The notes below the pieces were generated by a model that saw nothing but the letters and a program-made list of their open reading frames with translations, was not told the origin of the DNA and did no database searches. Source: a virus. Taken from it: a DNA stretch of 42,584 nucleotides. Every line of letters begins with the position of its first letter. Position 1 is the first letter of the stretch. This document shows positions 4,498 to 28,584 of this stretch, piece by piece. The stretch covers positions 1 to 42,584 of the IMG/VR virus record IMGVR_UViG_3300005468_000011; one strand, written 5' to 3'. A program made the translations under genes and the position numbers.

Positions 4498-4508
4498 TTA
4501 ATATCGTT

Positions 4509-4535: not shown

Positions 4536-4582
4536 TTCGATTGTTTATAGTTTATAGCCAATGGTTTACTGTAAAGGATTTT

Positions 4583-4729: not shown

Positions 4730-4802
4730 ACGGTTCGGTTGTGCGGTGTTGACCGAGGGGAAGATTCAAAAGGAACCCGATGGAATCTGGCGGAGGATTA
4801 GA

Positions 4803-6976: not shown

Positions 6977-6981
6977 CGGCA

Positions 6982-7095: not shown

Positions 7096-7125
7096 AAGCT
7101 ACTTAGCCTTACAGAGGGAAAATAA

Positions 7126-7332: not shown

Positions 7333-7356
7333 CGCAGTTCCCTGCGAAGGAAGTAA

Positions 7357-9358: not shown

Positions 9359-9360
9359 GG

Positions 9361-9600
9361 CTAGATCCTCTCCTGAATAGCTTTTTGAACCTCATCTGGA
9401 AGTTCATTCGCTTTCAGTTCAACGCCCGCTAATTCGTTCCACATTGGACGATCAGTCCCTGCGTATTGATTAACGCCTTGCGGAGACAAGGCATTACGAG
9501 ACATGGTGAACATATTCCAATTCCCGCCACTGGCTCTCACATAGACCTGATAACGATCCATATATTTTTCGCCCACATCAAAAACGCGGATGGTCTTCAT
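9361..9600 (-). CDS. Conserved phage hypothetical protein, 79 aa
   Basis: The opening, VFDVGEKYMDRYQVYV, resembles a widespread short phage protein family (DxGxxxDRYTV). Its function is unknown. GAGGTGG six bases before the ATG gives good initiation. It is the second gene of the leftward operon. Confidence 0.65.
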   Translation of the reverse strand: MKTIRVFDVGEKYMDRYQVYVRASGGNWNMFTMSRNALSPQGVNQYAGTDRPMWNELAGVELKANELPDEVQKAIQERI

Positions 9601-9601
9601 G

Positions 9602-9838
9602 TTAGGCCACCTCGCCTTCGAGCTTCTTAATCATTTGCTCGATAGTGCGGTTCTCAGTATGGAAGTTGGCATCTTCTAACGCGGAGTAAGCGACTTTCAA
9701 TAAGGCGAGTCCATCCCATTCAAAGTATTGAGAGAGCATAATTCCGAGGGCTTGTTCATCGGTTGCTTTGGATTGATATTCGGGAACGAAGGACTTTTTA
9801 ATCTGGGCTTGGATCATTTCTTTCAATTGCTCTTTCAT
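9602..9838 (-). CDS. Hypothetical protein, 78 aa
   Basis: An acidic helical protein beginning MKEQLKEMIQAQIKK. Three starts are possible (GTG 9847, ATG 9844, ATG 9838). GAGG is best spaced for 9838. It is the first gene after the leftward promoter at 9879-9906. Confidence 0.65.
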   Translation of the reverse strand: MKEQLKEMIQAQIKKSFVPEYQSKATDEQALGIMLSQYFEWDGLALLKVAYSALEDANFHTENRTIEQMIKKLEGEVA

Positions 9839-9878
9839 CGTCATCACCTCATGCCTAACCCTGAATCTCTACATTAGG

Positions 9879-9906
9879 AGTATAACATGAATATGATAAT
9901 AATCAA
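9879..9906 (-). promoter_or_regulatory. Leftward promoter of the 9838-7357 operon
   Basis: On the minus strand TTGATT (plus 9901-9906) and TATACT (plus 9879-9884) are 16 bases apart, about 40 bases before the first gene. This matches a sigma-70 promoter well. Confidence 0.6.
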
Positions 9907-9952
9907 TAGGTCTAAAGACACATTTATGAATAATGCATTTGAATGATGAATT

Positions 9953-9971
9953 GCGGTTCGTGGTGAACCGC
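9953..9971. repeat. Inverted repeat GCGGTTC/GAACCGC
   Basis: A 7-bp perfect stem with a 5-base loop in the divergent intergenic region. CGGTTCGT also occurs twice near 42083, so one regulator may bind both places. Confidence 0.45.
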
Positions 9972-10046
9972 TTCTAGGAATAGCGCTATACGCTCTAGGA
10001 TTCGATTTTAGGCCCATAAAACCCTGTTTACGTACAAAGACACTAC

Positions 10047-10075
10047 TTGACGCCAAATCGAATATGAGGCATAGT
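10047..10075 (+). promoter_or_regulatory. Possible rightward promoter
   Basis: TTGACG (10047-10052) and CATAGT (10070-10075) are 17 bases apart. It would drive the accessory operon beginning at 10303. The remainder of 9848-10302 contains no gene. Confidence 0.45.
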
Positions 10076-10252
10076 GGACACAATGCGGGTAAAGATGAGG
10101 TTTTGAGAGCCCGCCTCAATGGAGATACTGCTCCAATTAGCTCAGCCCAACATACCGCGGCCGCTAAATATTAACCTCGGTGCCTAGCATTCGGTTGTAA
10201 GCATCCGGGAAGAACTCAGTATCCGTCCAGACCCGCATAGACCCCCAAGCTA

Positions 10253-10277
10253 GGGATAGGGGGGTAGGGGGGTTGGG
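10253..10277 (+). other. Possible G-quadruplex sequence
   Basis: Four G-runs lie in order: GGG, six G, six G and GGG, separated by three, two and two bases. On the coding strand it would be in the leader RNA about 25 bases before the TTG start at 10303. Confidence 0.45.
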
Positions 10278-10302
10278 CAGAAGTGGACGTTTAAGGTGAC
10301 GA

Positions 10303-10533
10303 TTGGAATCTATATTTCTCCCATGTAAACATCGTTGGGTGTTGGTTAAAAAGATCCATCGAACAACACTCAATTGGATTACGGTGGATAGATGTAGGAA
10401 ATGCAGTTCGGTAGTACAAAGGGTATGGAACGTTAAGGTTGTAGATGGAAGGGCAATGACAACGTGCGATAGCTCGACGGTAAATACCACACTCCCCGAC
10501 GATAAACCAACAACTTCTCCTCAGAATGTCTGA
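10303..10533 (+). CDS. Mini zinc-ribbon protein, CxHxW type, 76 aa
   Basis: It has C8-x-H10-x-W12 and a later C-x2-C (CRKC), the same order as the three tandem copies at 3159-3751, though the spacing is longer and the IIIG-type end is absent. AAGGTG lies four bases before a TTG start, and no earlier ATG fits. A distant relative or a convergent zinc protein; function unknown. Confidence 0.55.
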   Translation: MESIFLPCKHRWVLVKKIHRTTLNWITVDRCRKCSSVVQRVWNVKVVDGRAMTTCDSSTVNTTLPDDKPTTSPQNV

Positions 10534-10864
10534 TATCTGCCCTGCAACATTACCAAAACCATTGATACTCAACGATTCAAATACTATTACTAAGAGTATC
10601 GACGGTGAGATCGACGGTAGAACTAGGTTGAGCAAGCGAGTCGTAAGATCAGTTTCGTCAGTAATATTACTATCAGCCTTCCGCAAACTTTTTTCTTTTC
10701 ACAAACCCTTTCGAAAGCTTTTACATCTCCCAGAACCGATGAAAGAATTCCTAAAAGCGTCATTACAGACTTTGGGCTTAGGGATGATGATCTTATGGTT
10801 CATAGGGTTGTCCCTACTCCCGGTGATAGGGCTTTGGTTTTTGCTGATGTGGATCGTTAAATGA
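10526..10864 (+). CDS. Membrane protein with tandem decapeptide, 112 aa
   Basis: The N-terminal half is polar. Residues about 50-70 contain two copies of a 10-residue repeat (AFRKLFSFHK, PFRKLLHLPE). The C-terminal 41 residues form two close hydrophobic segments, likely membrane spans. An ATG at 10739 could give a short form of only the membrane part. The ribosome site is weak and the start overlaps the upstream gene. Confidence 0.5.
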   Translation: MSDICPATLPKPLILNDSNTITKSIDGEIDGRTRLSKRVVRSVSSVILLSAFRKLFSFHKPFRKLLHLPEPMKEFLKASLQTLGLGMMILWFIGLSLLPVIGLWFLLMWIVK

Positions 10865-10919
10865 CCGAACCCTTCCGAAAAACTTTTTTCAATTTCAGAA
10901 TCCTCCGAAAACTTTTTTC
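10679..10919 (+). repeat. 30-bp-period direct repeats (TCCGAAAACTTTTTTC)
   Basis: Close copies lie at 10679-10695, 10873-10890 and 10903-10919, with a weaker one near 10709. Copies within each pair are 30 bases apart, equal to ten codons, and encode the F/L-R-K-L-F motif in two adjacent genes. Confidence 0.6.
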
Positions 10920-10926
10920 CCAATGA
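10861..10926 (+). CDS. Basic peptide made of the FRKLF repeat, 21 aa
   Basis: The peptide reads MTEPFRKTFFNFRILRKLFSQ in two pieces of ten, matching the repeat of the upstream gene. Its ATG overlaps the upstream TGA and its TGA overlaps the next ATG, so it would be translated if its neighbours are. Cationic and aromatic, possibly membrane active; function is not known. Confidence 0.4.
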   Translation: MTEPFRKTFFNFRILRKLFSQ

Positions 10927-11177
10927 AGTCATCTAAATCCGAACCCATCAAAGCGGATGACCTTCGAAAAGCTGTCTGCAAGATGCGGATGGATGCGGAT
11001 CAGAAGGCGGAGGAGATCATCCGGGCTTGTTATCCGGACAATGAGTGGGTTGATCTGCCGCAGACGGCGTTATTTCAGAAGTTTAAGCTGTTGATTGTGG
11101 AGGCTTGGATGGAGGCCCACGCGGCGGGAGTAACGTGGGCGTATAAGAATTTTGAAGAACTTTTCAGGATGAGATGA
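10923..11177 (+). CDS. Hypothetical protein, 84 aa
   Basis: A helical soluble protein of unknown function in the rightward accessory operon. There is no separate ribosome site; the ATG overlaps the stop of the 21-residue peptide, so translation is probably coupled. Confidence 0.6.
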   Translation: MKSSKSEPIKADDLRKAVCKMRMDADQKAEEIIRACYPDNEWVDLPQTALFQKFKLLIVEAWMEAHAAGVTWAYKNFEELFRMR

Positions 11178-11181
11178 CCAA

Positions 11182-11361
11182 ATGTTCGTGATTACGTATG
11201 AGGGGAAGTATTGGAGTTACGAGCGGGCATTGACGGAGGATGTGGGAGAGGCTCGGAAGTACAACCAGAAGGTGAATGCGGAGAATGCAAGGTTGCGGTT
11301 GTTGCGGGGCAGGCCTAACTTTAAAGCCGACTTGATGGAAGTGAAAGAGATTCCGGGATGA
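11182..11361 (+). CDS. Hypothetical protein, 59 aa
   Basis: A charged helical protein with aromatic residues near the start (MFVITYEGKYWSYE). It is coupled to the next gene by ATGA. Function unknown. Confidence 0.55.
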   Translation: MFVITYEGKYWSYERALTEDVGEARKYNQKVNAENARLRLLRGRPNFKADLMEVKEIPG

Positions 11362-11540
11362 AGAAGTATTCAAAGATTCGGTTTCCAAGTAGGCGCGAGC
11401 GTCGATTAGCGTTTCGAACATCGACTTTAATGCATTGGATGGAATGGGGACCTTTGCATAAGCGAATATTGAAAAAGATGTCCGATCATATATTTTCCGC
11501 TACTCCGCTATTTGACTATGTGAGTAAGCAACATGAGTGA
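11358..11540 (+). CDS. Basic hypothetical protein, 60 aa
   Basis: Rich in Arg and Lys in the first half (RFPSRRERRLAFR), suggesting nucleic-acid contact. No domain recognised. Overlaps both neighbours. Confidence 0.55.
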   Translation: MKKYSKIRFPSRRERRLAFRTSTLMHWMEWGPLHKRILKKMSDHIFSATPLFDYVSKQHE

Positions 11541-11682
11541 GATCGTTTGCGTCCATTGGTGGTCCGTCTGGTTTGAACCGATGGGGGATGGTCCGAAGTG
11601 GCGTATCTGCCGGGGGTTATGCAAGAGGACCCAGAACGATGGCGATCCCGATCCGGAAGTCGTTATTGCGAGGTTCTTATGA
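11533..11682 (+). CDS. Mini CxHxW protein with PEVVIARF end, 49 aa
   Basis: It has C6-x-H8-x-W10, a later Cys pair (C26-x3-C30) and PEVVIARF, matching PEIIIGHV, PQIVIGFI and PKVVIGYV of the cluster at 3159-3751. It is thus probably a fourth family member on the other strand, with the second Cys pair one residue wider. Coupled by overlaps on both sides. Confidence 0.6.
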   Translation: MSEIVCVHWWSVWFEPMGDGPKWRICRGLCKRTQNDGDPDPEVVIARFL

Positions 11683-11996
11683 CAGACGAAGAGATTAATA
11701 TCTCGGTGGCGCGAAAGCTTGGGTGGAAGGAATGCGATGGGCACGAACTATGGCCAAAAAACTACTGCCACTCCATCGAAGCGGCGTGGGAGGTTGTGGA
11801 GCAACCAGGATTATTTGTTGAAGTAAACAAAAAGCTCAATCGTAAGTTTGGCGAAGAGAAGATTTGGACTACATATTATTGCACTCTTTGGAAAGATGGA
11901 GAGTTTGACGATGGAAAGGTTTATTCAGTCGAAGCTGACACAGCGCCCATGGCCATCTGCTTGGCGTTTTTGAAATTAGATGAAAAGGAGCCTTAA
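11679..11996 (+). CDS. Phage ABA-sandwich domain protein, 105 aa
   Basis: The opening MTDEEINISVARKLGW, the central SIEAAWEVVE and the final APMAICLAFLK match the small phage protein family with an alpha-beta-alpha sandwich fold. Its role is not known. The ATG at 11679 overlaps the stop of the preceding gene and is preferred to an upstream start. Confidence 0.7.
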   Translation: MTDEEINISVARKLGWKECDGHELWPKNYCHSIEAAWEVVEQPGLFVEVNKKLNRKFGEEKIWTTYYCTLWKDGEFDDGKVYSVEADTAPMAICLAFLKLDEKEP

Positions 11997-12204: not shown

Positions 12205-13251
12205 ATGATTCCGCTGTTTAAAGTCCGTATGGAACCGTCTGTCGATCAGGCGGTATCGAAAGTTCTGCATTCCGGATTTATCGGGCAAGGAGAAAACGTT
12301 GAAGAATTCGAAAAAGCCCTTATCCCCTGGATTGGCCGCGAAACCATCCTTACCGTCAATTCCTGTACCTCCGCTATCCAATTGGCACTCCGCCTCTCTG
12401 GCGTACAAGCAAGCGATGAGGTTATCTCTACCCCTGTTACATGCACGGCTACAAACGAGCCCATTGTCGCAATGGGTGCAAGGATCGTCTGGGCAGACGT
12501 TGACCCTTGGACCGGAAACATCGACCCCCAATCGGTTAAAAAGAAAATCACCAAGAAAACGAAAGCCGTCATCGCCGTCCATTGGGGCGGCCTCCCCTGC
12601 AACATAGACGCTCTCCTCAAAATCTGTAAGGATCATGGGATCAAACTGATCGAAGACGCCGCCCATGCCCTGGGTGCCACCTACAAAGGCAACCCCATCG
12701 GCAGTCATGGCGATTTCGTCTGCTTTTCCTTCCAAGCCATCAAGCACTTAACAACCGGCGATGGCGGTCTTCTTAGCTGTAAGAGCAAGAAGGACTACGA
12801 ACGCGCCAAGCTCCTGCGTTGGTATGGGATCAAGCGGCCGGCCAACTTAAAGAAGGACATCCCGGAATGGGGCTACAAGTTCCACATGAACGATATTGCG
12901 GCCGCGATCGGCCTGGAGAACTTAAAAGGCTTGAAAGAGGATTTACAGAAGCGCCACGCCAACGCCGATTTCATCAATTGGTTTTGTTTAGACCCAAAAG
13001 AAAGCGCCTACTGGTTTCTTGCGCGCCATATTGAACGCCGGGACGCTTTTATAAAGCACATGGCCAAAAACGGAATCGCTTGCGGGACCGTTCATGAACG
13101 TAACGACGCCTATTCTATGTTCCGGGATTTTCGTACCTATCTCCCTGGCGTAGATTCCTTTTGTAAAACCCAGGTCAATCTTCCCATAGGACCCTGGCTT
13201 ATCTTCTCTGATCGAGTCCGAATTGTAGAAGCCGTCCATGCCTTTAAATAA
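12205..13251 (+). CDS. DegT/DnrJ-family PLP sugar aminotransferase
   Basis: This 348-residue enzyme has the full signature of a PLP-dependent nucleotide-sugar aminotransferase of the perosamine-synthase type: T54-S-A for phosphate contact, E150-D151-A-A-H-A, and S175-F-Q-A-I-K180-H-L-T-T-G-D-G-G, in which Lys180 forms the Schiff base with PLP. Such enzymes transfer an amino group to a 4-keto-6-deoxy sugar nucleotide. It overlaps the second DegT gene by 14 bases, so they are probably made together. The ribosome site is only AAGAAG, rather far upstream. The exact sugar is not deducible. Confidence 0.85.
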   Translation: MIPLFKVRMEPSVDQAVSKVLHSGFIGQGENVEEFEKALIPWIGRETILTVNSCTSAIQLALRLSGVQASDEVISTPVTCTATNEPIVAMGARIVWADVDPWTGNIDPQSVKKKITKKTKAVIAVHWGGLPCNIDALLKICKDHGIKLIEDAAHALGATYKGNPIGSHGDFVCFSFQAIKHLTTGDGGLLSCKSKKDYERAKLLRWYGIKRPANLKKDIPEWGYKFHMNDIAAAIGLENLKGLKEDLQKRHANADFINWFCLDPKESAYWFLARHIERRDAFIKHMAKNGIACGTVHERNDAYSMFRDFRTYLPGVDSFCKTQVNLPIGPWLIFSDRVRIVEAVHAFK

Positions 13252-14383
13252 GATCCGCTTAGGTTATAACTCGGTCCCTGCTAAAGCCAAAAAGCTGGTT
13301 CTGGAAGTATTCAATTCAGGGCAATTTTCACCGGGAATTAAGGTTCGGGAATTTGAGGAGAAATTCGCTGCTCTCCACAAAGCCAAACACGCCGTATTCG
13401 TTAATTCCGGAACCGACGCCCTGCGCCTTGGCCTCTTGGCGCTTAAAGAGAAGTACGCCTGGAAAGACGGGGATCTGGTAGCCGTTACCACCCAAACCTT
13501 TGTGGCGACCGTAAACGTCATCCTCCAATCTGGACTTACGCCTTTCTTCTACGATAACGGCAATCCTTGGAGCCTTGAGCATATTCTGAATACCTCTCCG
13601 GAGAAGCCGAACATCGTAGCTGTTATGCCTGTTCACCTTTTCGGGAAACCTTGTGATCCCCGCATTTACCAGACAGCCAAAGAGCGGGGCTGGAAAGTCC
13701 TGGAAGATTCCTGCGAAACCATCCTCAATCCGATCCGAGGAAACGTCTCTTGCCATTCCACCTACATGGCCCACCACTTAGTAACCGGAGTCGGCGGGTT
13801 TGTCCTTACTCATGACCATGAGATCGCAGATCTTATCCGCAGCTACGCCAACCATGGCCGAAACATCGCTTATCTTCCAGGCCACCGAACCCCGCCCCTT
13901 TCAAAACAGCTTCTTCAGAAACGCTTTCTCTTTGAAAGAAGCGGCTATTCCAGCCGGGGAACCGAGTTCGAAGCCGCGCTCGGCCTTTCGCAGCTTGACG
14001 ATTTACATGTAAACGTCCACAAAAGGCGCGAGGTGGCCGCCAAGCTGTGCAAGGCGCTCTGGCCCTGGTACGCAAAGTTTCAAATGGACGAACCCAATTT
14101 GCACCCCCGACATACCTTCATGATGTTTCCCATGATCGCTAAGGAGGGATACAGGTTCGACAAATACAAGTTCTGTCTGCACTTGGAAAAGCGCGGCATC
14201 GAAACCAGGGATTTAATGCCGATCACAAGCCAGCCCTCCTTTAAAGCGCTCGTTAAAGAGTCCGATTATCCCAGTTCCGACTACTCCAATAAGAACGGTT
14301 TTTACTTGCCCATCAATCCGGGCATGACCGATCGGGATATTGCCCAGATCCGACGAGCTTTCAAATCATATTTGCAAAAATAG
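13238..14383 (+). CDS. DegT-fold protein with Lys-to-His change; likely sugar 3-dehydratase (ColD/DdhC-like)
   Basis: The 381-residue protein has the DegT fold (N56-S-G-T-D near the phosphate site, E156-D157-S-C-E for the cofactor ring), but where the aminotransferase has S-F-Q-A-I-K-H it reads S174-T-Y-M-A-H179-H. His in place of the Lys is the hallmark of ColD and DdhC/RfbH, PLP/PMP-dependent 3-dehydratases that remove the 3-hydroxyl of 4-keto-6-deoxy sugar nucleotides and lead to 3,6-dideoxyhexoses. The AHH sequence resembles RfbH. Activity is inferred. It is coupled to the aminotransferase gene; no reductase partner is seen. Confidence 0.75.
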   Translation: MPLNKIRLGYNSVPAKAKKLVLEVFNSGQFSPGIKVREFEEKFAALHKAKHAVFVNSGTDALRLGLLALKEKYAWKDGDLVAVTTQTFVATVNVILQSGLTPFFYDNGNPWSLEHILNTSPEKPNIVAVMPVHLFGKPCDPRIYQTAKERGWKVLEDSCETILNPIRGNVSCHSTYMAHHLVTGVGGFVLTHDHEIADLIRSYANHGRNIAYLPGHRTPPLSKQLLQKRFLFERSGYSSRGTEFEAALGLSQLDDLHVNVHKRREVAAKLCKALWPWYAKFQMDEPNLHPRHTFMMFPMIAKEGYRFDKYKFCLHLEKRGIETRDLMPITSQPSFKALVKESDYPSSDYSNKNGFYLPINPGMTDRDIAQIRRAFKSYLQK

Positions 14384-14485: not shown

Positions 14486-15046
14486 TTGAAACGCGACGAT
14501 CTTGCTAAAGGCATCAATGATTCCTCCCGCCGGATCAAAATCCGTGGCCAGTACGCCGTTGTTCCCCTCAAATTTGATCAAGAAGGCCGGCCGGCGACCG
14601 AAACTACTATGGTCGTCAAAAGACTTACGCTTAATGACCTCCGGTTCCTGGCGCTCTGGCGCGAAACGGATTTTGCCGAAGACGTAAATGTTTTAGCCGA
14701 AAAAGCTAATCTAGACATAGACCGCGTCGAGCGGTTGATTAAAAAACTCTCCTGCTTCTCTCAAGAAAACGCCCGCGTCAAAGCCCTTTGCGAAATCCCA
14801 ACCCCCAACTGGATCAAAGCCAAACACGTCGAAAGCATCTACGGCGGAGCCAACGAAAAGCTCTGTGACGCCGACCAAAAGTCCCTCTCTGAACTCGCCA
14901 AGATCGAAGGGGCCTACAAGAACACCTCCACCGTAAACATGAACGTGACGCACTCCCTCCAGCTCCCTTCTTTATCGCCAGAGCAAGAAGCCGAACTAAA
15001 ACGGATAGGCGATTCCATCGCTACAACCGCCCAGGAGGCCGCATGA
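14486..15046 (+). CDS. Probable small terminase subunit, 186 aa
   Basis: The position directly before TerL and a central helical region (NVLAEKANLDIDRVERLIKKL, about 68-88 in two pieces) that can form a helix-turn-helix suggest the DNA-recognition subunit of the packaging motor. The sequence itself does not identify a family. The TTG start has no Shine-Dalgarno site and follows a hairpin, so the N-terminus is uncertain; an ATG near residue 42 is the alternative. Confidence 0.55.
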   Translation: MKRDDLAKGINDSSRRIKIRGQYAVVPLKFDQEGRPATETTMVVKRLTLNDLRFLALWRETDFAEDVNVLAEKANLDIDRVERLIKKLSCFSQENARVKALCEIPTPNWIKAKHVESIYGGANEKLCDADQKSLSELAKIEGAYKNTSTVNMNVTHSLQLPSLSPEQEAELKRIGDSIATTAQEAA

Positions 15047-15059: not shown

Positions 15060-16487
15060 GTGACCGATTCCTGGATTCTGGCGCAGACATCCTTAAAGTT
15101 CTTTACCACGCAATTTCTAGGGCTTAGCTGGCATTCTCATTACGAAGAATGGCGCGATCTCTTGGAAAAGTATAACCGCGTCTTGATTCAGGCTCCGCGC
15201 GGCAGCAGGAAAAGCTACTTTTTCTCGCTCACCTATCCCCTTTGGAAGATCATCCGTGGCAAAACAGATGTTCTCTTGGTGTCAGACTCCGAGGATCAAT
15301 CCCGAAAGAACCTTCGCATTATCCGGGACACCGTAGAATCAAATCCTTTCTTAGAACCCTTACGTCCATCCACCAAAGAACTTTGGGGAGTCGATCAAGC
15401 GCAGTTCCGTAACGGGACCATGATCAATACCATGGGATTTGGGACCAGTAAACGCGGCGAACATCCTCTCTTAATCCTAAACGACGATATTGAATCCGAA
15501 CGCAACAAGATGTCTAGAGAGGATAAGAACCGCATGTATTGGGCGGTTATTACCGGGATGGCCGTAAACGAGACCCAGCTCATTACCCTGGGAACCCCCC
15601 TGGAATTTGGCGACATCTTAGAGCAAGCCGAAAAGCGAAAACAGGAAGATGGGACGTTCATTTACAAGCAATGGAGTAAGCCCGTCTGGAACAACATGAT
15701 TGACCGGGTTAATCAATATCCGGATCTTTGGACAGACGCCCAGATTCGATTTAAGTTGGCCGAGATGGGCACGCTCGATTTTGCCCGAGAAATGATGCTC
15801 CAGCGCATTGACCCGGCGACGCAGCCGTTTAAAAAAGACTATGAAACGCTGTATTCCGAACTTCCCAACAATTTTGCTTTTACGGTGACAACGTGCGACC
15901 CCGCCTATACGGAGGGAGACGGCGACTATACCGCCATTATGACGACCAAGTTTACCCATGGGAATCATGCCTATATTGTCGAAGCGAAGAGGTTTCGGCG
16001 TGAAGATCCGGGGAAAATTGTGGATGAGCTGTTCAAAACCATCGCCATTCATAATCCGAATGCCGTGGGTATTCCAAAGAAAAAAGGCGAAGTGGTTTCC
16101 TACACGTTTAAGGAGCGTCGTATTCGAGACCAGCGCTACGACTTTAAGTATGTCGAACTTCCTGAAACCCAGGGGAAGGCATCCAAAGCTAGGGTCGGCG
16201 GCCTTGTTCCAAGGTGGGAAGCTAGAACCATTCATGTCCATAAGAACATGACGGATTTGCTCAATGAGTTTTACCAGTTTCGCTTGGATGATTCTCATGC
16301 AAACGACGATATGTTGGACGCTCTAGCCCATTGTTTCAATTCTGAGATGGTTGCGCCAAATTCAGGAAAGCAAAACGTCCAGAACCCGGAAACCTCTAGG
16401 GTAGGCCGTGCCTTTTACCGGGTCGGGAACGCTCAAACCTCCGTTGAAGCCGGAGCCAAAGCCATTCTTCTAGGGTTAGCCGCATGA
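15060..16487 (+). CDS. terL: Terminase large subunit
   Basis: The ATPase-nuclease motor that packages DNA, 475 residues. The ATPase has a Walker A variant A45-P-R-G-S-R-K-S52, Walker B L138-I-L-N-D-D and the coupling motif TLGTP at 176-180. The RNase H-like nuclease starts with D280 (TCDPAYTEGDGDYTA) and ends with the acidic cluster ANDDMLDALAH near residue 410. A GTG start with AGGTG upstream is used. The stop overlaps the start of a small zinc-ribbon gene by ATGA. Length and order fit a complete enzyme. Confidence 0.95.
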   Translation: MTDSWILAQTSLKFFTTQFLGLSWHSHYEEWRDLLEKYNRVLIQAPRGSRKSYFFSLTYPLWKIIRGKTDVLLVSDSEDQSRKNLRIIRDTVESNPFLEPLRPSTKELWGVDQAQFRNGTMINTMGFGTSKRGEHPLLILNDDIESERNKMSREDKNRMYWAVITGMAVNETQLITLGTPLEFGDILEQAEKRKQEDGTFIYKQWSKPVWNNMIDRVNQYPDLWTDAQIRFKLAEMGTLDFAREMMLQRIDPATQPFKKDYETLYSELPNNFAFTVTTCDPAYTEGDGDYTAIMTTKFTHGNHAYIVEAKRFRREDPGKIVDELFKTIAIHNPNAVGIPKKKGEVVSYTFKERRIRDQRYDFKYVELPETQGKASKARVGGLVPRWEARTIHVHKNMTDLLNEFYQFRLDDSHANDDMLDALAHCFNSEMVAPNSGKQNVQNPETSRVGRAFYRVGNAQTSVEAGAKAILLGLAA

Positions 16488-17133: not shown

Positions 17134-19248
17134 GTGGAAACCAATCAGCTGCGCCCCGCACCCATAGCGAACCCGCAAGATAGTCCTCTGGCGGCCGGCC
17201 GTAAGGCCGACCTTCTCCGCTACGTCCAGAGCTTCTATCGGCGCAGCTGGGATTGGCGAAGCCAGCGGTTTCATTCCAAATGGGACAGAAACGATCGGGA
17301 TTACAATTCCATCTACGATCCCCAGCGGGCGGCATCTAAGGAGCCTTGGCAGGAGAAGATCCATACGGGATTGACCGTCCAGAACATCGAAGTCATCCAT
17401 TCCCAAATCTACAAAACGATGATGGCTCCGAAACCCTGCGTTCAAACCGTAGCGGGGCCGGCCGGGGATGATCTTCAGGCGAGGTTAATGCAAGACGTTG
17501 TAGCCGACCAGTTCGCTAAAGCCAAGTTCGACATTGCTTTCTATGACACCTCTAAAGAAGCCGTCAAATACGGCGATGGGTTCATGAAGCTGTATTGGGA
17601 AAAGATTGAAGATGCCCGCCGTAGGAGAGTGCCCGTCCAGCAGACCCCGCAACAGCAAATCGACACCATGCCTCCCGAAGCTTTGGCTGGCCAAGCGCCT
17701 ATCCCCCCGCCGGGAATCAACGGTTTCCAGATGCAGAATACCACGGTCCTCTTAAAGGACCAGTTGTGCGCCAAGTACATCCATATCCGAGACGTTTTCC
17801 CGGAACCCAATACGACTTCTTGGGATAAAGGCATCCACCGCGACAAAATCACCTACGGGGAAATCGTTAAGAACATTTTGGCCGGAGCCTTCTTTGATGT
17901 GCGCGGGGACTTGGACAATGTGACGGAAGGCCAGAACTTCGAATCCGATTTGCAGATCATCAAGCAGGAATTGGGCTATTTCGATACCCACCGCGAGATG
18001 TCGAAGTTCGAAAAGCCACATACGGTCTGGGAACTGTTCTGTCCGATCCCGCGCAAATGGATTGAATTCGATATCCCGGAAGGCGATGATGCCGAGATTC
18101 TTGTCCCGGCTAAGGTGATGGTTGCTTCTAGCGTTGCCCTTTTGACCTCCGAGGAAAACACGAATTTTGATGGGGAATGGCCAGTCAAGAAGTGTCCTTA
18201 CATCCGTTCTGGCCAAACCTACGATATCGGCGTCTGCGACTTGATCGGAGACGATCAGGCCCTTTCCAACGAGATCGTAAGTATGCGGATCGATAATCTG
18301 AACTTGATCTTAAATAAGGGCATCGCCGTAAACGAAACCGGACTTGTGAACGCCGAACAGGATTTGGCTTCGAAACCCGGATGGGTTCTGAGGTTTAAGG
18401 GACTTGTCACCAATATCCGCGATTATTTCTTGCCCATTGAGTTTGGAGATGTCACCTCCGGAGCCTACCGGGAAACCATTGAAGTAGGCCTCCGAGTCCA
18501 GGAAAAGACCGGGGCAAACAAAGTGACTTTGGGGACTTCCAGCCAAGTGACCGATACCAATCAAACCCTGGGCGGGATGGAACTTCTAAAGCAGATGTTT
18601 AACGAGCGGGTTGCGGCCCTGGGCATGGTCATTGAATCCAGCTTTTTAGTGGAATGCGCCCGCATGACCTATGGCCTTATCTATCAGCGGTTCGGAGATG
18701 ATCCGGAGGGCTTAAAGTACATCCTGGGGGAAGAACCTGTTCAGATCGGGATGATTCCGGCTCCTCCTCCCCCGCCGCCTCCTCCCGGGATGCCTCCTTT
18801 GCCGCAAGCGCCCGATCAACCGCACATGGTCCCGCGCTACCTGGCTTTCGCCTTTGTTCCGCCGGAGGTCGTCAACAACGCTTATATCTACAAACCCATG
18901 GGCATTTTCAGCATGGAAAATAAGGTCGTTAAATCCGCCCAGATCATGGACATGATCAAAATGAATATGGGCAATCCCGGTTTTGATCAGCAGCAGGCAT
19001 CGAAATACTTGGCGGTTGAAGTCCAGGGAATTAACGAAGCCGAAAAATGGTTCCGGCCGGTCCCCATGATCCCGATGGCGGCCATCCCTCCGGAAATCTT
19101 GCCCATGGTCATGCAGAACATGAACGGGGGTGGAGGTGGGAATGCCCCTACCCTTAAGAATACCCCCGGCATGAAAAGCGGTGCGAACGGAAACGGGGCT
19201 ACTTTCTCTCCACCAAACCCCATCAATCGTCAGCCGGTGATTGCATGA
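17134..19248 (+). CDS. Portal protein, 704 aa
   Basis: By order (TerL, portal, scaffold, capsid), size and composition this is the dodecameric portal through which DNA enters the head. The N-terminal part (RRSWDWRSQRFHSKWDRN) and the central segment with QALSNEIVSMRIDNLNLILN are typical of large podovirus portals. A Pro-run (PAPPPPPPPP) near residue 547 and a Gly-rich, low-complexity C-terminus follow. GTG start; GGAG is about ten bases upstream. The stop overlaps the next gene by ATGA. Confidence 0.85.
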   Translation: METNQLRPAPIANPQDSPLAAGRKADLLRYVQSFYRRSWDWRSQRFHSKWDRNDRDYNSIYDPQRAASKEPWQEKIHTGLTVQNIEVIHSQIYKTMMAPKPCVQTVAGPAGDDLQARLMQDVVADQFAKAKFDIAFYDTSKEAVKYGDGFMKLYWEKIEDARRRRVPVQQTPQQQIDTMPPEALAGQAPIPPPGINGFQMQNTTVLLKDQLCAKYIHIRDVFPEPNTTSWDKGIHRDKITYGEIVKNILAGAFFDVRGDLDNVTEGQNFESDLQIIKQELGYFDTHREMSKFEKPHTVWELFCPIPRKWIEFDIPEGDDAEILVPAKVMVASSVALLTSEENTNFDGEWPVKKCPYIRSGQTYDIGVCDLIGDDQALSNEIVSMRIDNLNLILNKGIAVNETGLVNAEQDLASKPGWVLRFKGLVTNIRDYFLPIEFGDVTSGAYRETIEVGLRVQEKTGANKVTLGTSSQVTDTNQTLGGMELLKQMFNERVAALGMVIESSFLVECARMTYGLIYQRFGDDPEGLKYILGEEPVQIGMIPAPPPPPPPPGMPPLPQAPDQPHMVPRYLAFAFVPPEVVNNAYIYKPMGIFSMENKVVKSAQIMDMIKMNMGNPGFDQQQASKYLAVEVQGINEAEKWFRPVPMIPMAAIPPEILPMVMQNMNGGGGGNAPTLKNTPGMKSGANGNGATFSPPNPINRQPVIA

Positions 19249-20807: not shown

Positions 20808-21851
20808 ATGGCTAATACGAATACAACGACTACAGTCCTGAACAACCTTCTTCCGGCGTATTTCAGCTCGAAGATGATGGTCAGGCTTGAGCCGAATACT
20901 CCCTTGGTGGAATTCGCTCAAAGAGACGATATCCCGATGCGATCCGGCAAGACGGCCACCTTCAATGGATGGACCTCCTTGGCGGCCGCTTCGGTAACTC
21001 TCTCGGAAGGCGCGGCGAACTCGCTTCCCGCTCTTTCGTCTCGCAAAGTGGTAGCGACGATTGCTCAGTACGGTCGCGGGGTGATTCTCACCGACTTGGC
21101 TCAGGCAACGTCTTTCTTTGATGCGGTCAATGGCGCTATGGATGTCCTCACGGATTCCGGAGCCAAGACTGTGGAAAGAATCTGCCAGATGGGTATCTAC
21201 AAAAACGACATTGCGGCCAATCAAAGCACGACTGGCCTTTTGTCGGCGTATATGACTTCGCAAGCTTCGGGATTCTGCGCTGTGACTGGAAACTCCAATG
21301 CTTCTAACTTACAGTTCCAGTTCCCGACGATCTTCGCGGCGTCCGTAGGATTCTTGTCGGCCATCAATGCGGCGGCTCCTAGCATCTCGGCTCAACTCTC
21401 GGTGTTCTCCGTCCGTAAGACGGCCACAACCCTGAGAGGCAAAGATGCTCGACCGTTTGCGGATGGCTACTATGTCGGATACGCGCACCCGAATGCTCTG
21501 CATTCCTTACGCAAAGATCCGACCTGGGCGATCTGGAATCAATACGGCAGCGCCAAAGAGACGATGTACGTGGGCGAAGTCGGGCGTGTTGAGAAAGTCA
21601 GATTCATTGACTCCACACTCGCGCCCAGATATGCTTCCGCCGCACATAGTATGTCGATGGTATTTATCTTCGGACAACAGGCGTTCGGGCTCACAAGCTT
21701 GGACGGCATGGTCAAGATGATGATTGCCAGAGGCGCGGATAAGACCGATCCTTGGGATCAGGTAACGCCGGTAACCTACAAACTGTGGGCGGCTGCGGTT
21801 TGTCTGAACCCGTCGGCGGGTCGTTTGTTAGTCGTCGCAGAAAAGCTCTAA
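20808..21851 (+). CDS. Major capsid protein, N4-gp56 family
   Basis: A 347-residue HK97-fold capsid protein of the N4-gp56 type. The beginning (NNLLPAYFSSKMMVRLEPNTPLVEFA), the central VATIAQYGRGVILTDLAQ and the C-terminal TYKLWAAAVCLNP regions are typical. It would form the icosahedral shell. The ribosome site is weak although high expression is expected; the gene may rely on a local promoter or abundant mRNA. It follows the scaffold at once. Confidence 0.9.
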   Translation: MANTNTTTTVLNNLLPAYFSSKMMVRLEPNTPLVEFAQRDDIPMRSGKTATFNGWTSLAAASVTLSEGAANSLPALSSRKVVATIAQYGRGVILTDLAQATSFFDAVNGAMDVLTDSGAKTVERICQMGIYKNDIAANQSTTGLLSAYMTSQASGFCAVTGNSNASNLQFQFPTIFAASVGFLSAINAAAPSISAQLSVFSVRKTATTLRGKDARPFADGYYVGYAHPNALHSLRKDPTWAIWNQYGSAKETMYVGEVGRVEKVRFIDSTLAPRYASAAHSMSMVFIFGQQAFGLTSLDGMVKMMIARGADKTDPWDQVTPVTYKLWAAAVCLNPSAGRLLVVAEKL

Positions 21852-21854: not shown

Positions 21855-22430
21855 ATGGCGTTTGAGGCTCCCGTAGAGATCATCACTCACGAGGTGAAAC
21901 CCTCTACGGGGCCTTTGCGTCTTATGCTGGGCGGAAGGGATCAACGATTAGAGGGCTGGACCAATGTGGATCTCCACGAAGGACAAAACGTGGACATCAG
22001 GGCCGATATTTCAGATTTACGGGCTGTCTGTAGAGATGGGTCTGTTCTGGAGCTTTATTGCTCACATTGCCTCGAACACTTCCCGCACCCAAGAACGCTG
22101 TCGGTATTAAAAGAATGGTATCGGGTTCTTCAACCCGGCGGCCAGATCTATATTTCCGTCCCTGATTTCGACGCGATGGTCAAACTCTATAACAAGATGG
22201 GCGTCTTGGTTCCGTTGATCCGAAATATGCTGTGTGGCGATCAAGGATACGACTTGGCTTTTCATTACAACCTCTTCACATATGCGACTCTCGCGGCCCT
22301 TTGTGTAGAGGCTGGCTTTAGGGATGTCAAACGTCTGGATCGGATGCCTTACGGTCTCCTGGATTGCTCGGCTCTCGTGGACACCGTCACAGATATGCCG
22401 ATTTCGCTTTCCATCAAGGCCATCCGATGA
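21855..22430 (+). CDS. SAM-dependent methyltransferase, 191 aa
   Basis: A class I methyltransferase: motif I is L23-M-L-G-G27, the acidic residue after it is D39, and the later region Y68-CSHCLEHF then L92-Q-P-G-G96 matches Methyltransf_11-type proteins. Targets in this family include sugars and lipids. Because glycosyltransferase genes follow directly, O-methylation of a glycan is the most likely role. The start lies three bases after the capsid gene and the stop overlaps the next gene by ATGA. Confidence 0.8.
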   Translation: MAFEAPVEIITHEVKPSTGPLRLMLGGRDQRLEGWTNVDLHEGQNVDIRADISDLRAVCRDGSVLELYCSHCLEHFPHPRTLSVLKEWYRVLQPGGQIYISVPDFDAMVKLYNKMGVLVPLIRNMLCGDQGYDLAFHYNLFTYATLAALCVEAGFRDVKRLDRMPYGLLDCSALVDTVTDMPISLSIKAIR

Positions 22431-23212
22431 TTGACCTCATGACGAGAATCCAATCCAAGAATCTTTATACTCGGATGATTCATTCGGCCAATGAAACTTG
22501 TTATGGGGCTATTCTCAATCATTTTGAAATAGACGACGTTGGATTGCCGAAGTGCGCCGAAACGTATAACCGGCTCGGCCTTTTAAGCGCGTCCGATATC
22601 CTCTGTTTTGTTGAGGACGATGTCGAGTTCATATCGAAGGATTGGGACCGAATCACTAAGGATATTTTCGCTGAGTATGAATGTGACATTCTCGGGGTTG
22701 TCGGATCTACAAAATATAACGGAGGCGGATATTTTGACGCCGGCCGGGAATACTCTTTTGGACAAGTCGCTTGCAATAAGTCTAAGGAGGAGCCGGAGAC
22801 TTGGGTCCGGGTTCTTTCTGAATACTATCGGTACAAGAAAGTCCAAGTCATCGATGGGATGTTGATGTTTATGACGCGAGAAGCATTTCTCAAAGAGCCG
22901 TTCGACGAGAAAACCTTTGACGAACTCTTTTACTATGACGTTGATCGATGCCTCAAATCCGACAAAGTCGCCGTCACCTCTGATATCTTGGTCAAACATT
23001 CCAAACCCCCTGAGATGTACGGGGTCTACCCGCCGGCCATGAAGACCGTTCACCAATACGAGCCGATCCTTCTAGAGCGTCATGGTCTTGTTAAGAAGCC
23101 GCCAAAGGATCAGACTTGTTGCTTTGTTTCATTGGAGCGATTTAAGAAAGAAGGACAAACAGAATGTTTCAACGGTTTTGAAAGGAAATACAAATGCGTA
23201 TCAGCGGCATAG
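22427..23212 (+). CDS. Glycosyltransferase, GT-A type, 261 aa
   Basis: Residues 58-66 read ILCFVEDDV, the acidic nucleotide-sugar/metal site, followed by W73 and DILGVVGSTKYNGGGYFDAG, a pattern of the Glyco_tranf_2_5 family. The ATG at 22427 overlaps the methyltransferase stop, so an upstream start is rejected. It would add a sugar to a glycan, donor unknown, and lies in the carbohydrate cassette between head and tail genes. Confidence 0.75.
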   Translation: MIDLMTRIQSKNLYTRMIHSANETCYGAILNHFEIDDVGLPKCAETYNRLGLLSASDILCFVEDDVEFISKDWDRITKDIFAEYECDILGVVGSTKYNGGGYFDAGREYSFGQVACNKSKEEPETWVRVLSEYYRYKKVQVIDGMLMFMTREAFLKEPFDEKTFDELFYYDVDRCLKSDKVAVTSDILVKHSKPPEMYGVYPPAMKTVHQYEPILLERHGLVKKPPKDQTCCFVSLERFKKEGQTECFNGFERKYKCVSAA

Positions 23213-24251: not shown

Positions 24252-24530
24252 ATGAAACGAACGTTAGCGGCACTCTTTCTGATCTTTGGATTCTTTGAGG
24301 TGACATGCCTTATGGCGGCGACGTACCAACCACAAAAATTGGGGTACGTGGACATCGCCATTTCATCCGCGCCAGTAGCCTCCATTACCCGATCAACGGC
24401 TTCAGCCGTCGGAACGATGCGCTGGTGTACTGATTGTATCACCAATGGCGGAGTCGGGACCTTGTGTATTTCGACAGGGACAACGGCCTGGAACCAATTC
24501 ATCCTATCGACGGGGACGGTTTGCAAATGA
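24252..24530 (+). CDS. Signal-peptide protein resembling tail-surface proteins, 92 aa
   Basis: A Sec signal peptide is evident: KRTLAALFLIFGFFEVTCLMA with cleavage near MAA. The mature part has AVGTMRWCTDC and GTLCISTGTTAW, a pattern seen in phage tail or fibre C-terminal modules. Two Cys pairs may form disulfides. The next glycosyltransferase gene overlaps its stop by ATGA. Confidence 0.65.
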   Translation: MKRTLAALFLIFGFFEVTCLMAATYQPQKLGYVDIAISSAPVASITRSTASAVGTMRWCTDCITNGGVGTLCISTGTTAWNQFILSTGTVCK

Positions 24531-26002
24531 GTAAAGAGCCTGTATTTTCGTTTGTTATTCCGGTCTATCAGAAGCCGGCGGAGATCTTTGAGCGATGTCT
24601 TGCCAGTCTCTTTGACCAGACGCTAAAGGAAATTGAGGTTATTGCCATATTTGATGGCCCGGATAAAGAACTTCAAGAAGTGGCGTCAAAATTCCCGAAG
24701 GTTCAATCGCATGTGATTGAACATGGCGGGGCTCCAAAGGCGCGGAACTACGGGACCTCTTTAGCCAAAGGGAAATACGTTGTCTGCTGGGATGCCGATT
24801 GTCAGGGGAAACCCGAGATGGCGACCCGATGGCTACAAGAGTTTGAGGCGACCGGGGCGGATTTCGTCTATTCGGGTTATGAGTTCTCCCAGGAAAGGGG
24901 CGGATATCCTTCCGAGCAGTTTGACCCTTACAGCCTTACATGCGGGAATTACATTTCCACGATGTTTCCGATCCTTCGAGAGAAAGCTCCTAAATGGGAT
25001 GAATCGTTAAAATGCGGCCAGGATTGGGATTTCTGGCTAACAGCCGTAGAGAACGGTTGCAAAGGGGTTTGGATCGAAGGTTCCGGATGGATTACGGAAC
25101 CTTCTTTCGGCTCCATTTCTGATATAGGATGGAGCCCGGAAAGACGGGCCGAGACAATTCGAATCGTTAAAGAGAAACACGGTATTCCTGAAAGGGAAAT
25201 CGCCGTCGGATCATTCCGCCATTTCTTTAAGGCTCTCCACATCGCCAAGTTGACACAGGGCGACATCTTAAAGAATCGCGGGGAAGACCTTTCCAAGTAC
25301 AAGATGATTTTTAACCTCGGGATGGGCGATTACGTACGGTTCCGGGGAGCGAGTAAGGATTGCGTCAAGATCCATTACTGGATGCCTTGGGACATCGATT
25401 GCATGTACGCGATCGCCTTTAAGACGGCCAGGGAAACAATTGCCCACATCAATACGGAAGTGACACACAACTTCTGTAACGAGATTACCTCGAAGAAGCG
25501 CTTAGAAGATCTTGGGATTAAAGCGGAAGTTCTTCCGCTTCCCACTGAGATTGATGGTTTAGAGGAAACGCTGCCGGACAAGTTCAAAGTATTGGTCGAT
25601 TGCGACAAGGCTTATCGGCCCATTCTTGTGGATCTTCCGAAGGCGCTCCCTCATATCCCAATCGATTTCGTCGATACGATGGGAAACGTTGCATCCATCC
25701 CGGAATATTCGCTTCTTCTGAGCTTCTACGAAAACCCTGGAGTAGATGAATCCATGCGCCGGTTCCTCTTGCATGGTCGGAACTTGATATCTAACGTCCA
25801 GGCTCCTTTCTGCGGGTACGTGGACATGGGACTCAAACATGTGGATTTTAAGAACGAGATGATCAACCGGATCATGGACGCCAGGGATCTCGGTTTTAAC
25901 AAAAAGGCCCAGGACTACTACAAGAATTTGGTTGATCCAAAGAAGTTCGTTGAAAAGTTGAACAGTCTTTTACCACAACCCGCAATGGAGGTAGTTTCGT
26001 GA
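24527..26002 (+). CDS. Two-domain glycosyltransferase, GT2 N-terminus, 491 aa
   Basis: Residues 1-220 form a GT2 domain: FSFVIPVYQKP, FDGPDKE and the D89-A-D91 metal site. The C-terminal 250 residues (from about FFKALHIAKL) may be a second glycosyltransferase-like or acceptor domain with no clear match. The ATG at 24527 overlaps the upstream stop; an earlier in-frame ATG is rejected. The stop overlaps the next GTG. Confidence 0.75.
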   Translation: MSKEPVFSFVIPVYQKPAEIFERCLASLFDQTLKEIEVIAIFDGPDKELQEVASKFPKVQSHVIEHGGAPKARNYGTSLAKGKYVVCWDADCQGKPEMATRWLQEFEATGADFVYSGYEFSQERGGYPSEQFDPYSLTCGNYISTMFPILREKAPKWDESLKCGQDWDFWLTAVENGCKGVWIEGSGWITEPSFGSISDIGWSPERRAETIRIVKEKHGIPEREIAVGSFRHFFKALHIAKLTQGDILKNRGEDLSKYKMIFNLGMGDYVRFRGASKDCVKIHYWMPWDIDCMYAIAFKTARETIAHINTEVTHNFCNEITSKKRLEDLGIKAEVLPLPTEIDGLEETLPDKFKVLVDCDKAYRPILVDLPKALPHIPIDFVDTMGNVASIPEYSLLLSFYENPGVDESMRRFLLHGRNLISNVQAPFCGYVDMGLKHVDFKNEMINRIMDARDLGFNKKAQDYYKNLVDPKKFVEKLNSLLPQPAMEVVS

Positions 26003-26700
26003 CGCCAAGAGCAACCTTTGTCATTCCTGCCTATAACGCCCAAGCCTGGATTGGAGACACACTTCAGTCCTGTTTAGATCAGACGGTTAAGCAAATCGAA
26101 ATCATTGTCGTCAACGATGGCTCAAAGGACCATACGCGGGAAATCGTTGATGCGATGAGGATAGAAGACAGCCGGATCAGGGCTGTTCATCTGACGCAAA
26201 ATGTCGGTCGATCGGAAGCCCGAAACATCGGGAATAAAGAGGCTCAGTCAGACATCATTTGCGTCCTGGATTCCGACGATAAGGCTTGTCGGAATAGGGT
26301 CAAAGATACGTTGGCTTGTTTCGAACTGAAGAAGCCCGATCTTGTATATGGCGGCTTTATCCTGATCGACACGTTCGGAAATATGGAAAAGCGGTTTGCT
26401 CCCGAACCATTTACCCGCGAAGCCTCGATCAAGTACAAGACCCATCACATTTGCCATTCGACAGTAGCCTACCGCAAGGGCCTGACCATGAATGTTCAGT
26501 ATGAGGCCGGCGACTATTCCAAGCTGGGAATCGATGATTGGAAGTTCATCTGGGACGCTCACGTAAAAGGCTACAAGTTCGCTTACGTTAAAAGCCCGCT
26601 CTGCTATTACCGGCGGGTTGACGGGACGATCACCTATACGCGGGATGAGAACGAAGTGGACAAGGTGAAGTCGGCCTTCCTGGAAAAAGCGTTTGTCTAG
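25999..26700 (+). CDS. GT2-family glycosyltransferase, 233 aa
   Basis: A textbook GT2 sequence: F7-VIPAYNA, V38-NDGS42, and the donor/metal site D91-S-D-D94, then DLVYGGF and the acceptor region IDDWKFIWDAHVKGYKF. GTG start with GGAGG seven bases upstream. It transfers a sugar from a nucleotide donor. It lies between two other glycosyltransferase genes with overlaps on both sides. Confidence 0.85.
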   Translation: MTPRATFVIPAYNAQAWIGDTLQSCLDQTVKQIEIIVVNDGSKDHTREIVDAMRIEDSRIRAVHLTQNVGRSEARNIGNKEAQSDIICVLDSDDKACRNRVKDTLACFELKKPDLVYGGFILIDTFGNMEKRFAPEPFTREASIKYKTHHICHSTVAYRKGLTMNVQYEAGDYSKLGIDDWKFIWDAHVKGYKFAYVKSPLCYYRRVDGTITYTRDENEVDKVKSAFLEKAFV

Positions 26701-27880
26701 GCCAATTCGCATCGCCATGATTCCTACCGCTAATGGCGGGGTCAATTACTACCGGATGGCCACTTGGGCCTTCCAGATGCGGAAGTACCGAAATGTCGAG
26801 GTAGCCGTCTTTGAGTTCTCTTATGGAATGAACGAACCGCATCCCTGGCAAAAGGGATTCTTTGCCAATCCGGATATCCGCTTCAGGATCGACAAGCTCT
26901 GCGAGGTTGCCGACATCGTTCTCTGGGGTCCGGTCCAGTACACCCACACTTACGAATTCTTTACGGAGATGAAGAATAAGCATGGGAAACTGACATTGAT
27001 CGACATGGACGATAATTACGTGGATGTCCCGGAATGGAACGAGGCGTTTCATTCCTATGGCCCGAACTCTTTTCATCGCCGGATTGCCCTTCAAACCCTC
27101 CAAATGGCCGATGGGGTGATCGTTTCAACCCCGCACTTGAAAGAGCTTTACGGCAAGCTTAATGACAACATTCATGTGATCCAGAACTCCCTTGATTTTA
27201 AGGGTGATTCCACGTTTATCGGATGGGATAAGGTTTCGCCCAAGAAGCATAAGGGGCTGAGGATCGGATGGATTGGCGGCCGGAGCCATTTCTTTGACTT
27301 AGCCATGATTGCGCCGGCGCTTCGAAACGTTTTGCTCCGTCATCCGGAAGTTCAGCTTTCTTTCATCAACTCAGCCTTTAAAACAAGCTATGAGGCTCTA
27401 AAGAAACCATACCCGTTCGAAGGACTCAAAAATGTCTATTTGGCTGATCGAAGCGTTCCTATCAATCGCTATGCTCGGTTTTACGGCCATTTCGGTTTTG
27501 ATATTGCTCTGGCTCCTCTTGTCGATTGCAATTTTAATCGCTCGAAGTCGAACCTCCGGTGGCTAGAAGCCTCTGCGATGGGACTTCCTTGCGTAGGGAC
27601 AGACATCTCGCATTTCAGTCAAACCGTCAGACATGGCGATGACGGGTTTCTAATCAAGCCCAACGATCTTCCCCAATGGGAAGTGGCGCTTGAACTGTTG
27701 ATTAAGGACCAAGCCTATCGGGAAGCTATTGGCCGCGCAGCCGGCAAGCGCGTCCGCAAAGATTTCAACGTCAAGAGAAACGCCGCCACCTATTTTAGGC
27801 TCCTCAAAACACTTCTCAACACCACTGTAATGGGCCAGGAAGAAGAGGTTCTTCGGCCGCAACTATCGGAGGTAGCATGA
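26693..27880 (+). CDS. GT4-like glycosyltransferase (GT-B), 395 aa
   Basis: The C-terminal Rossmann half shows G192-WIGG196 and L291-E-ASAMGLP299, in which the Glu and the GLP turn contact the nucleotide sugar. The N-terminal half has the acceptor-domain pattern MIPTANGGVNYYRM. A TTG start at 26693 overlaps the previous gene; the first ATG is nine codons in and is the alternative. The stop overlaps the tail adaptor gene by ATGA, so the sugar cassette is in the same transcript as virion genes. Confidence 0.8.
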   Translation: MSRPIRIAMIPTANGGVNYYRMATWAFQMRKYRNVEVAVFEFSYGMNEPHPWQKGFFANPDIRFRIDKLCEVADIVLWGPVQYTHTYEFFTEMKNKHGKLTLIDMDDNYVDVPEWNEAFHSYGPNSFHRRIALQTLQMADGVIVSTPHLKELYGKLNDNIHVIQNSLDFKGDSTFIGWDKVSPKKHKGLRIGWIGGRSHFFDLAMIAPALRNVLLRHPEVQLSFINSAFKTSYEALKKPYPFEGLKNVYLADRSVPINRYARFYGHFGFDIALAPLVDCNFNRSKSNLRWLEASAMGLPCVGTDISHFSQTVRHGDDGFLIKPNDLPQWEVALELLIKDQAYREAIGRAAGKRVRKDFNVKRNAATYFRLLKTLLNTTVMGQEEEVLRPQLSEVA

Positions 27881-28584
27881 CTCGAGCTGATCTTGAATCC
27901 TTAATTGGCGATTTAACGAGCGATCCCAGTCACGACCGATATACGACTTCCCAGATCGATACTGAACTCGATAACACTCAAAATCAATGGAATACCGAAG
28001 CCAAGATCATCAAGGATACGGCGACGTTAACCGTTGTTGCCGGAACTCGCCAGTATGCGATCTCTAGCCTGGGCGGGGTTCCGATCTCATTTCCAAGGGC
28101 AACGCATAAAGGCATCCCGCTCCAGAAAAGGGATAAGACTTATTTTGACTTGTATGCGGGTTCCGGGGTGGATTGGACGACATTAAACGGGACGCCAACC
28201 GATTTCTTGATTGAGGCAAACGATCCGGCCATTCAATACATAACAGTTTTCCCAAACCCTGGAAGTGCCGATATCGGGGCGAATCTTGTCATTGAATTTA
28301 TCCTGGCGCATACCTCTATGGCTAACTCTGGAGATACGCCTTTTAACGCCAGCCCCGAAACGGCTCCCTACCATTTCGGGTTGGCGTATTCTGTAGCGGC
28401 AAGGCTCCTCTTGCGCGATCCAAGCCCCCAGAATGAGGCCAAGGTTGAACCTTACAGAAGCGTTTCAGATCGAGCCTTAGCCGATCTCATTACCGTCTTT
28501 AAAGCTCTTGAGAAAGCCGAACCTTTGCGCCTTCGTTCCAATTACGTTCCCGTTGGCAGACAGGTCAGCAATTGGCGAAACTAA
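27877..28584 (+). CDS. Head-tail adaptor / tubular-A-type protein, 235 aa
   Basis: The start, TRADLESLIGDLTSDPSHDRYTTSQID, and a middle beta region with DFLIEANDPAIQYITVFPNP fit podovirus neck adaptors that sit below the portal. Its place before the tail hub gene agrees. ATGA overlap with the glycosyltransferase upstream. Confidence 0.7.
   Translation: MTRADLESLIGDLTSDPSHDRYTTSQIDTELDNTQNQWNTEAKIIKDTATLTVVAGTRQYAISSLGGVPISFPRATHKGIPLQKRDKTYFDLYAGSGVDWTTLNGTPTDFLIEANDPAIQYITVFPNPGSADIGANLVIEFILAHTSMANSGDTPFNASPETAPYHFGLAYSVAARLLLRDPSPQNEAKVEPYRSVSDRALADLITVFKALEKAEPLRLRSNYVPVGRQVSNWRN

Follow-up and report, generated by a model that had tools for sequence, protein, structure and literature searches.

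A histidine-type DegT protein encoded beside the terminase genes of a phage group: a candidate 3-dehydratase of deoxysugar synthesis

The window, by which we mean the whole stretch of DNA analysed, is an IMG/VR virus record of 42,584 bases. A direct terminal repeat of 50 bases (window 1-50 and 42535-42584) makes the record look circular, or circularised, and complete. An integrase is found at 217-1443, and the record contains no tRNA gene. The protein of interest was named H_DegT; its gene and the features discussed with it are as follows.

12205..13251, plus strand: Lys-type DegT aminotransferase, AtmS13/CalS13-like, 348 amino acids, with Lys180
13238..14383, plus strand: H_DegT, DegT-fold protein of the His type, ATG start, 381 amino acids and stop
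13706..13708, plus strand: codon of Asp157, the cofactor-ring aspartate (by alignment)
13772..13774, plus strand: codon of His179, at the position of the Schiff-base lysine, equivalent to ColD His188 and E1 His220 (by alignment)
14486..15046, plus strand: putative small terminase subunit (TerS), constant neighbour of H_DegT (by position and synteny)
15060..16487, plus strand: large terminase subunit (TerL; phrog_38, 200 bits)
17134..19248, plus strand: portal protein (phrog_1216)
20808..21851, plus strand: major head protein (phrog_1357, 129 bits)
21855..22430, plus strand: methyltransferase, first gene of a cassette, present in part of the group
22364..23212, plus strand: glycosyltransferase Glyco_tranf_2_5 (GT_22364), in the window and in L122/L123
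23194..24030, plus strand: glycosyltransferase-like protein with a weak GT2 match, conserved in the group
24434..26002, plus strand: GT2 glycosyltransferase, 522 amino acids, conserved in the group
25999..26700, plus strand: GT2 glycosyltransferase without membrane helices, conserved in the group
26693..27880, plus strand: group-1 glycosyltransferase, conserved in the group
27877..28584, plus strand: SU10-type head-tail adaptor, at the end of the cassette

H_DegT matches the Pfam family DegT_DnrJ_EryC1 (PF01041) with 198 bits (gathering score 19.8), and its gene overlaps the open reading frame upstream by 14 bases. When the two products are aligned, His179 of H_DegT (CHSTYMAHHLVTGVGG) falls opposite Lys180 of the upstream protein (CFSFQAIKHLTTGDGG), with Asp157 and Ser174 retained. 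H_DegT thus lacks the Schiff-base lysine of the Lys-type sugar aminotransferases, such as perosamine synthase, and carries His179 instead. The first-pass annotation had proposed this same replacement, with Asp157 kept, and the alignment agrees.

Viral contigs were scanned with three queries: the H_DegT protein, an alignment of H_DegT and an alignment of TerL, which performed better than a single TerL sequence, by which little was found. The scans added 18 records of this phage group in which H_DegT is present, at approximately 39-62% identity. The gene is present in 19 of 22 informative group records, a count that leaves out five cut-off, uninformative ones (L127, L128, L131, L136, L140). It is absent from L125, L126 and L137 despite sufficient upstream sequence, and a PF01041 search of the whole of L125 and L137 gave 0 matches. 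All readable H_DegT homologues of the phage group have histidine at the position of residue 179. Moreover, dN/dS was 0.09 for one pair (L006 and L009), synonymous sites being saturated in pairs more distant than this. Judged from these sequences, H_DegT is under purifying selection and the lysine-to-histidine change is not a stray mutation; the earlier claim that the gene does not look like decay is in keeping with the invariant histidine and this ratio. Simple Lys-to-His decay is ruled out by conservation, selection and the tree described below.

At the nucleotide level the window region matched no phage record, and a scan of bacterial genomes for a prophage or host recovered distant relatives only (identity ≤34%). 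The closest cellular relatives by identity, all of the His type, are mostly Omnitrophota proteins (33-34%). Searches of open-licence papers for phage colitose, DegT or donor-sugar genes turned up nothing on these phages. Short fibronectin-III-like proteins, judged by eye from sequence, seem to be encoded immediately before H_DegT or TerS in several records of the group (L009 4645-5013; L006 3942-4337; L097 3104-3448; L139 6935-8221; L125 5582-5989).

A maximum-likelihood tree was built from 70 rows, comprising 17 phage proteins, E1, ColD, 9wvy, the cyanophage ACG-2014f enzyme and bacterial or archaeal relatives of both the His and the Lys type, the 27 Lys-type rows being taken from hits to the phage profile. 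The supports are to be read with the bootstrap not fully settled, 9wvy on a long branch and the root left uninferred. A branch with support 99/91 separates all 43 His rows, ColD and E1 among them, from the Lys rows. The earlier suggestion that the change from lysine to histidine marks the 3-dehydratase branch is borne out by this grouping. Within it, the 17 phage rows form a clade (100/99) and the remaining His rows, E1 and ColD among them, another branch (98/93). The phage clade is therefore placed outside the ColD branch, as the sister of a larger group with ColD, E1 and other sequences. Removal of the active-site columns left the His/Lys split with an SH-aLRT of 99, and forcing the phage clade beside the perosamine synthases cost 82 log-likelihood units and was rejected (p-AU 0.002). 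The outcome that was to have counted against the first-pass annotation, placement among the Lys-type aminotransferases, was accordingly not seen. On the strength of the tree, H_DegT appears to descend from an ancestor common to ColD and E1 but not to the Lys-type enzymes.

The active site is consistent with this placement. Ser57, Gly58, Asp157, Cys159, Ser174, His179, His180, Gly187, Gly207, Tyr237 and Arg324 are common to H_DegT, ColD and E1, Glu160 is the same in ColD (Asp in E1) and Tyr176 is the same in E1. Two differences count against a ColD-like enzyme. Ser238 stands where ColD and E1 have an asparagine that reaches the cofactor phosphate across the subunit interface. In the core phages, moreover, the active-site motif is not directly preceded by the hairpin of some 7 residues (H_DegT residues ~161-170) that L129, L134 and L010 keep. 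None of the four cysteines of the E1 cluster region is found in H_DegT or the phage clade, and the NCBIfam RfbH model scored H_DegT at 126 bits against a cut-off of 423. Identity with the E1-type iron-sulphur enzymes is ruled out by the missing cluster cysteines, and a ColD-like PMP mechanism is for the same reason the most likely. A CxC-type set of cysteines is present in some Omnitrophota relatives; Omnitrophota and a few other bins (L015, L016, L017, L018, L019, L027) have a His-type DegT clade with the set CKCxxC. In another clade (L021, L039, L046, L084) the motif reads AHNIQAGE.

An AlphaFold model of H_DegT showed a complete DegT fold (mean pLDDT 94.8). Foldseek ranked GDP-perosamine synthase first (TM 0.83-0.87); TM by query length was 0.86-0.87 for E1 and 0.84-0.86 for ColD. 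Against family members TM was about 0.86. By plain sequence and fold, then, the nearest solved structures are the Lys-type GDP-perosamine synthases, level with or slightly above E1 and ColD. As all three score alike, the fold comparison does not discriminate between them.

The Lys-type enzyme upstream is closest to the AtmS13-like 4zwv/4xau (283 bits) and to CalS13. Of the 8 long group records bearing DegT genes, two such genes occur only in the window (G000) and G008; L007, a near copy of G008, also has the Lys-type gene. In the other six (G002, G003, G004, G012, G016, G018) the His-type gene is the sole DegT gene. The pairing with an aminotransferase noted in the first-pass annotation therefore holds for the window and G008/L007 and fails as a general feature. 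An obligate pair with the Lys enzyme is ruled out, and a neighbour found in only one or two lineages is not the general purpose of H_DegT.

The constant partners lie on the other side of the gene. Group records share the order H_DegT, TerS, TerL, portal, scaffold-like protein and major head protein, except that H_DegT sits between TerS and TerL in L134 and L135. The product of 14486-15046 has no Pfam or PHROG match. After the major head protein come one or more optional methyltransferases, an optional GT_22364, four conserved glycosyltransferase-like genes and the SU10-type adaptor. In the window, this cassette (21855-27880) consists of the methyltransferase and five glycosyltransferase-like genes. 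It is present in every group record that reaches well past the head gene, and two of the three records without H_DegT still show it, so the cassette does not need H_DegT. A simple hydropathy scan found no membrane helix in the cassette products, which suggests that they work in the cytoplasm, on protein rather than lipid-linked acceptors. With TerS/TerL and the glycosyltransferase cassette as the constant partners, virion glycosylation is the better context for H_DegT; the cassette in the head module is stronger in this respect than the pair of DegT genes.

The remainder of a deoxysugar pathway was also sought. No match to the GDP_Man_Dehyd, Epimerase, RmlD or RmlC families was found in the group records tested, in which small unannotated ORFs could hide other reductases, and the complete-looking window has no match to PF16363, PF01370 or PF04321 (no Gmd or ColC-type gene). 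The pathway is incomplete in the phage group. With no 4,6-dehydratase or ketoreductase found, the substrate must come from the host; in most group members the finishing step must likewise come from the host or from an unrecognised gene, which is the weakest point of our account. More distant relatives have fuller neighbourhoods. In phage L010, whose enzyme is 37% identical, Gmd, SDR, RmlC-like epimerase, His-type DegT and glycosyltransferase genes stand side by side; the region 4273-11855 of this record is apparently a complete 3,6-dideoxyhexose pathway in one phage. A GDP-fucose-synthase-like gene, the kind of enzyme that ColC is, adjoins His-type DegT in bacterial L015, L017 and L027 and in L049 of the ColD branch, and a Gmd-like gene does so in bacterial L021.

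E1, ColD and SpnQ have a histidine instead of the lysine, and this histidine serves as catalytic base: PMP and the 4-keto sugar form a Schiff base, the histidine abstracts a proton and the C3 hydroxyl is lost (PMC8987622). ColD, which has no cluster, then hydrolyses the adduct and glutamate remakes PMP, whereas E1 and SpnQ need an iron-sulphur cluster and a reductase (PMC8987622). By analogy, PMP in H_DegT would react at the C4 ketone of an NDP-4-keto-6-deoxyhexose supplied by the host, at a best guess a GDP sugar, to form a Schiff base. His179 would remove the cofactor proton and the C3 hydroxyl would depart; hydrolysis of the adduct would give a 4-keto-3,6-dideoxysugar, with PMP regenerated by glutamate and no iron-sulphur cluster involved. 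Where a Lys-type neighbour is present, in the window and its close relative, that enzyme could go on to add an amino group at C4, giving a 4-amino-3,4,6-trideoxysugar. That a trideoxy amino sugar nucleotide can exist is indicated by the title of PDB 3dr7, GDP-perosamine synthase with GDP-3-deoxyperosamine. In other phages of the group, reduction or amination of the ketone would have to be left to a host enzyme. The sugar nucleotide would pass to the phage's own soluble glycosyltransferases, encoded in the head-adaptor interval, most likely for glycosylation of the virion.

We thus consider it rather probable that H_DegT is a ColD-like PMP-dependent 3-dehydratase of a phage-specific clade, with a product that most likely goes onto the virion; activity, nucleotide, use and target are all predicted here. 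More broadly, these phages probably modify a sugar of the host and use it as decoration, on themselves or on the host. The fullest form of the proposal is put forward tentatively, as possible: a third 3-dehydratase clade, near-core and beside the terminase, would turn a host 4-keto-6-deoxysugar nucleotide into a rare di- or trideoxysugar, placed on the capsid by the head-module glycosyltransferases. If true, the virion decoration would be built from a deoxysugar that is perhaps not among the host's own products.

The same chemistry might instead feed a host surface polysaccharide, as in O-antigen or capsule conversion for superinfection exclusion. The integrase, which suggests a temperate phage, the position of the DegT genes outside the head cassette and the resemblance of one GT2 to GtrB-like O-antigen-conversion proteins point this way. 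However, Gtr conversion systems depend on membrane proteins and the cassette products have no membrane helix; moreover, in every group member read the cassette is flanked by the capsid and adaptor genes. We regard a host-surface destination as unlikely. The enzyme could also be of the His type and something other than a 3-dehydratase, carrying out transamination or another C3/C4 keto-sugar reaction. The loop deletion, Ser238 and the position of the phage clade outside the ColD/E1 branch would fit such a role, as would the observation that SpnQ transaminates without its reductase (PMC8987622). Against this stand the active-site letters common to H_DegT and ColD and the pathway neighbours of its relatives. 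To our knowledge, moreover, all characterised His-type members of the DegT fold are 3-dehydratases, and a different reaction seems to us a little less likely again than a host-surface destination.

Two further explanations concern the neighbouring genes. Phages put sugars on DNA bases by sugar transferases, and the presence of a methyltransferase with glycosyltransferases might suggest a role for H_DegT in DNA hypermodification instead of in glycans. The ORFs searched, which included part of the small ones, contained no recognisable base-modification gene, and the cassette adjoins the capsid gene, so that this role is very improbable. Slightly less credible still is a pseudoenzyme, in which H_DegT would be the catalytically dead heterodimer partner of the Lys-type aminotransferase: the two genes are adjacent and overlapping in the window and G008, but the His-type gene stands without a partner in the six long records above, and the histidine and other catalytic letters are invariant.

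A ColD-like dehydratase in this position would be of interest in several respects. A few phages have documented virion glycosylation, but little work seems to have been done on phage enzymes that supply the sugar donor itself. A 3-dehydratase clade that is both near-core and phage-specific offers a concrete, testable route from a host sugar nucleotide to a rare deoxysugar. The H_DegT clade would also be a further branch for the study of how an aminotransferase fold turned into a dehydratase, either with an iron-sulphur cluster or without one.

Among known systems, ColD (GDP-4-keto-6-deoxymannose 3-dehydratase, PDB 2gms) resembles H_DegT in having histidine for lysine, in its side of the tree, in Asp159, Glu162 and Ser183, which all have H_DegT equivalents, and in the lack of iron-sulphur cysteines. 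However, ColD-like rows are 25-29% identical to H_DegT and form a separate clade, H_DegT has Ser238 for Asn, Phe88 for Trp and the hairpin deleted, and the phage has no Gmd or ColC-type gene, unlike the GDP-colitose pathway to which ColD belongs. E1/DdhC/RfbH (CDP-4-keto-6-deoxyglucose 3-dehydrase, PDB 3bcx) shares the histidine within AHH, the Tyr176 equivalent and the His clade, but its cluster cysteines after the GRD motif are missing in H_DegT. GDP-perosamine synthase (PDB 3bn1, 3dr4), a GDP-sugar enzyme, is the best solved structure by sequence profile and fold but is of the Lys type. For the cassette, there is a published account of virion glycosylation in mycobacteriophages (Freeman 2023, cited by PMC12691614), and the Cluster O mycobacteriophage Corndog, like the window, has a methyltransferase and glycosyltransferases (three in Corndog) among its virion genes, in a different phage and gene order and with no DegT enzyme mentioned in the relevant passages of PMC4351075. 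Cyanophages S-CAM7, ACG-2014f and S-B05 also carry a His-type enzyme among glycosyltransferases, so there is precedent for an enzyme of this type in phages. In the first two, the gene of a ColD-type His enzyme is in one run with Gmd and a GDP-fucose-synthase-type gene. The ACG-2014f enzyme lies within the ColD branch, unlike H_DegT, and that of S-CAM7, annotated as a putative CDP-4-keto-6-deoxy-D-glucose-3-dehydrase, has the same motif. The S-B05 enzyme differs from H_DegT in its E1-like cysteines; its gene lies at 4327-5622 of Synechococcus phage S-B05 (L142), where the product is listed as a hypothetical protein although it is a His enzyme of the E1 type, with cysteines in a CxC...C pattern. 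None of the three cyanophage enzymes is encoded in the packaging and head region, where H_DegT has its place.
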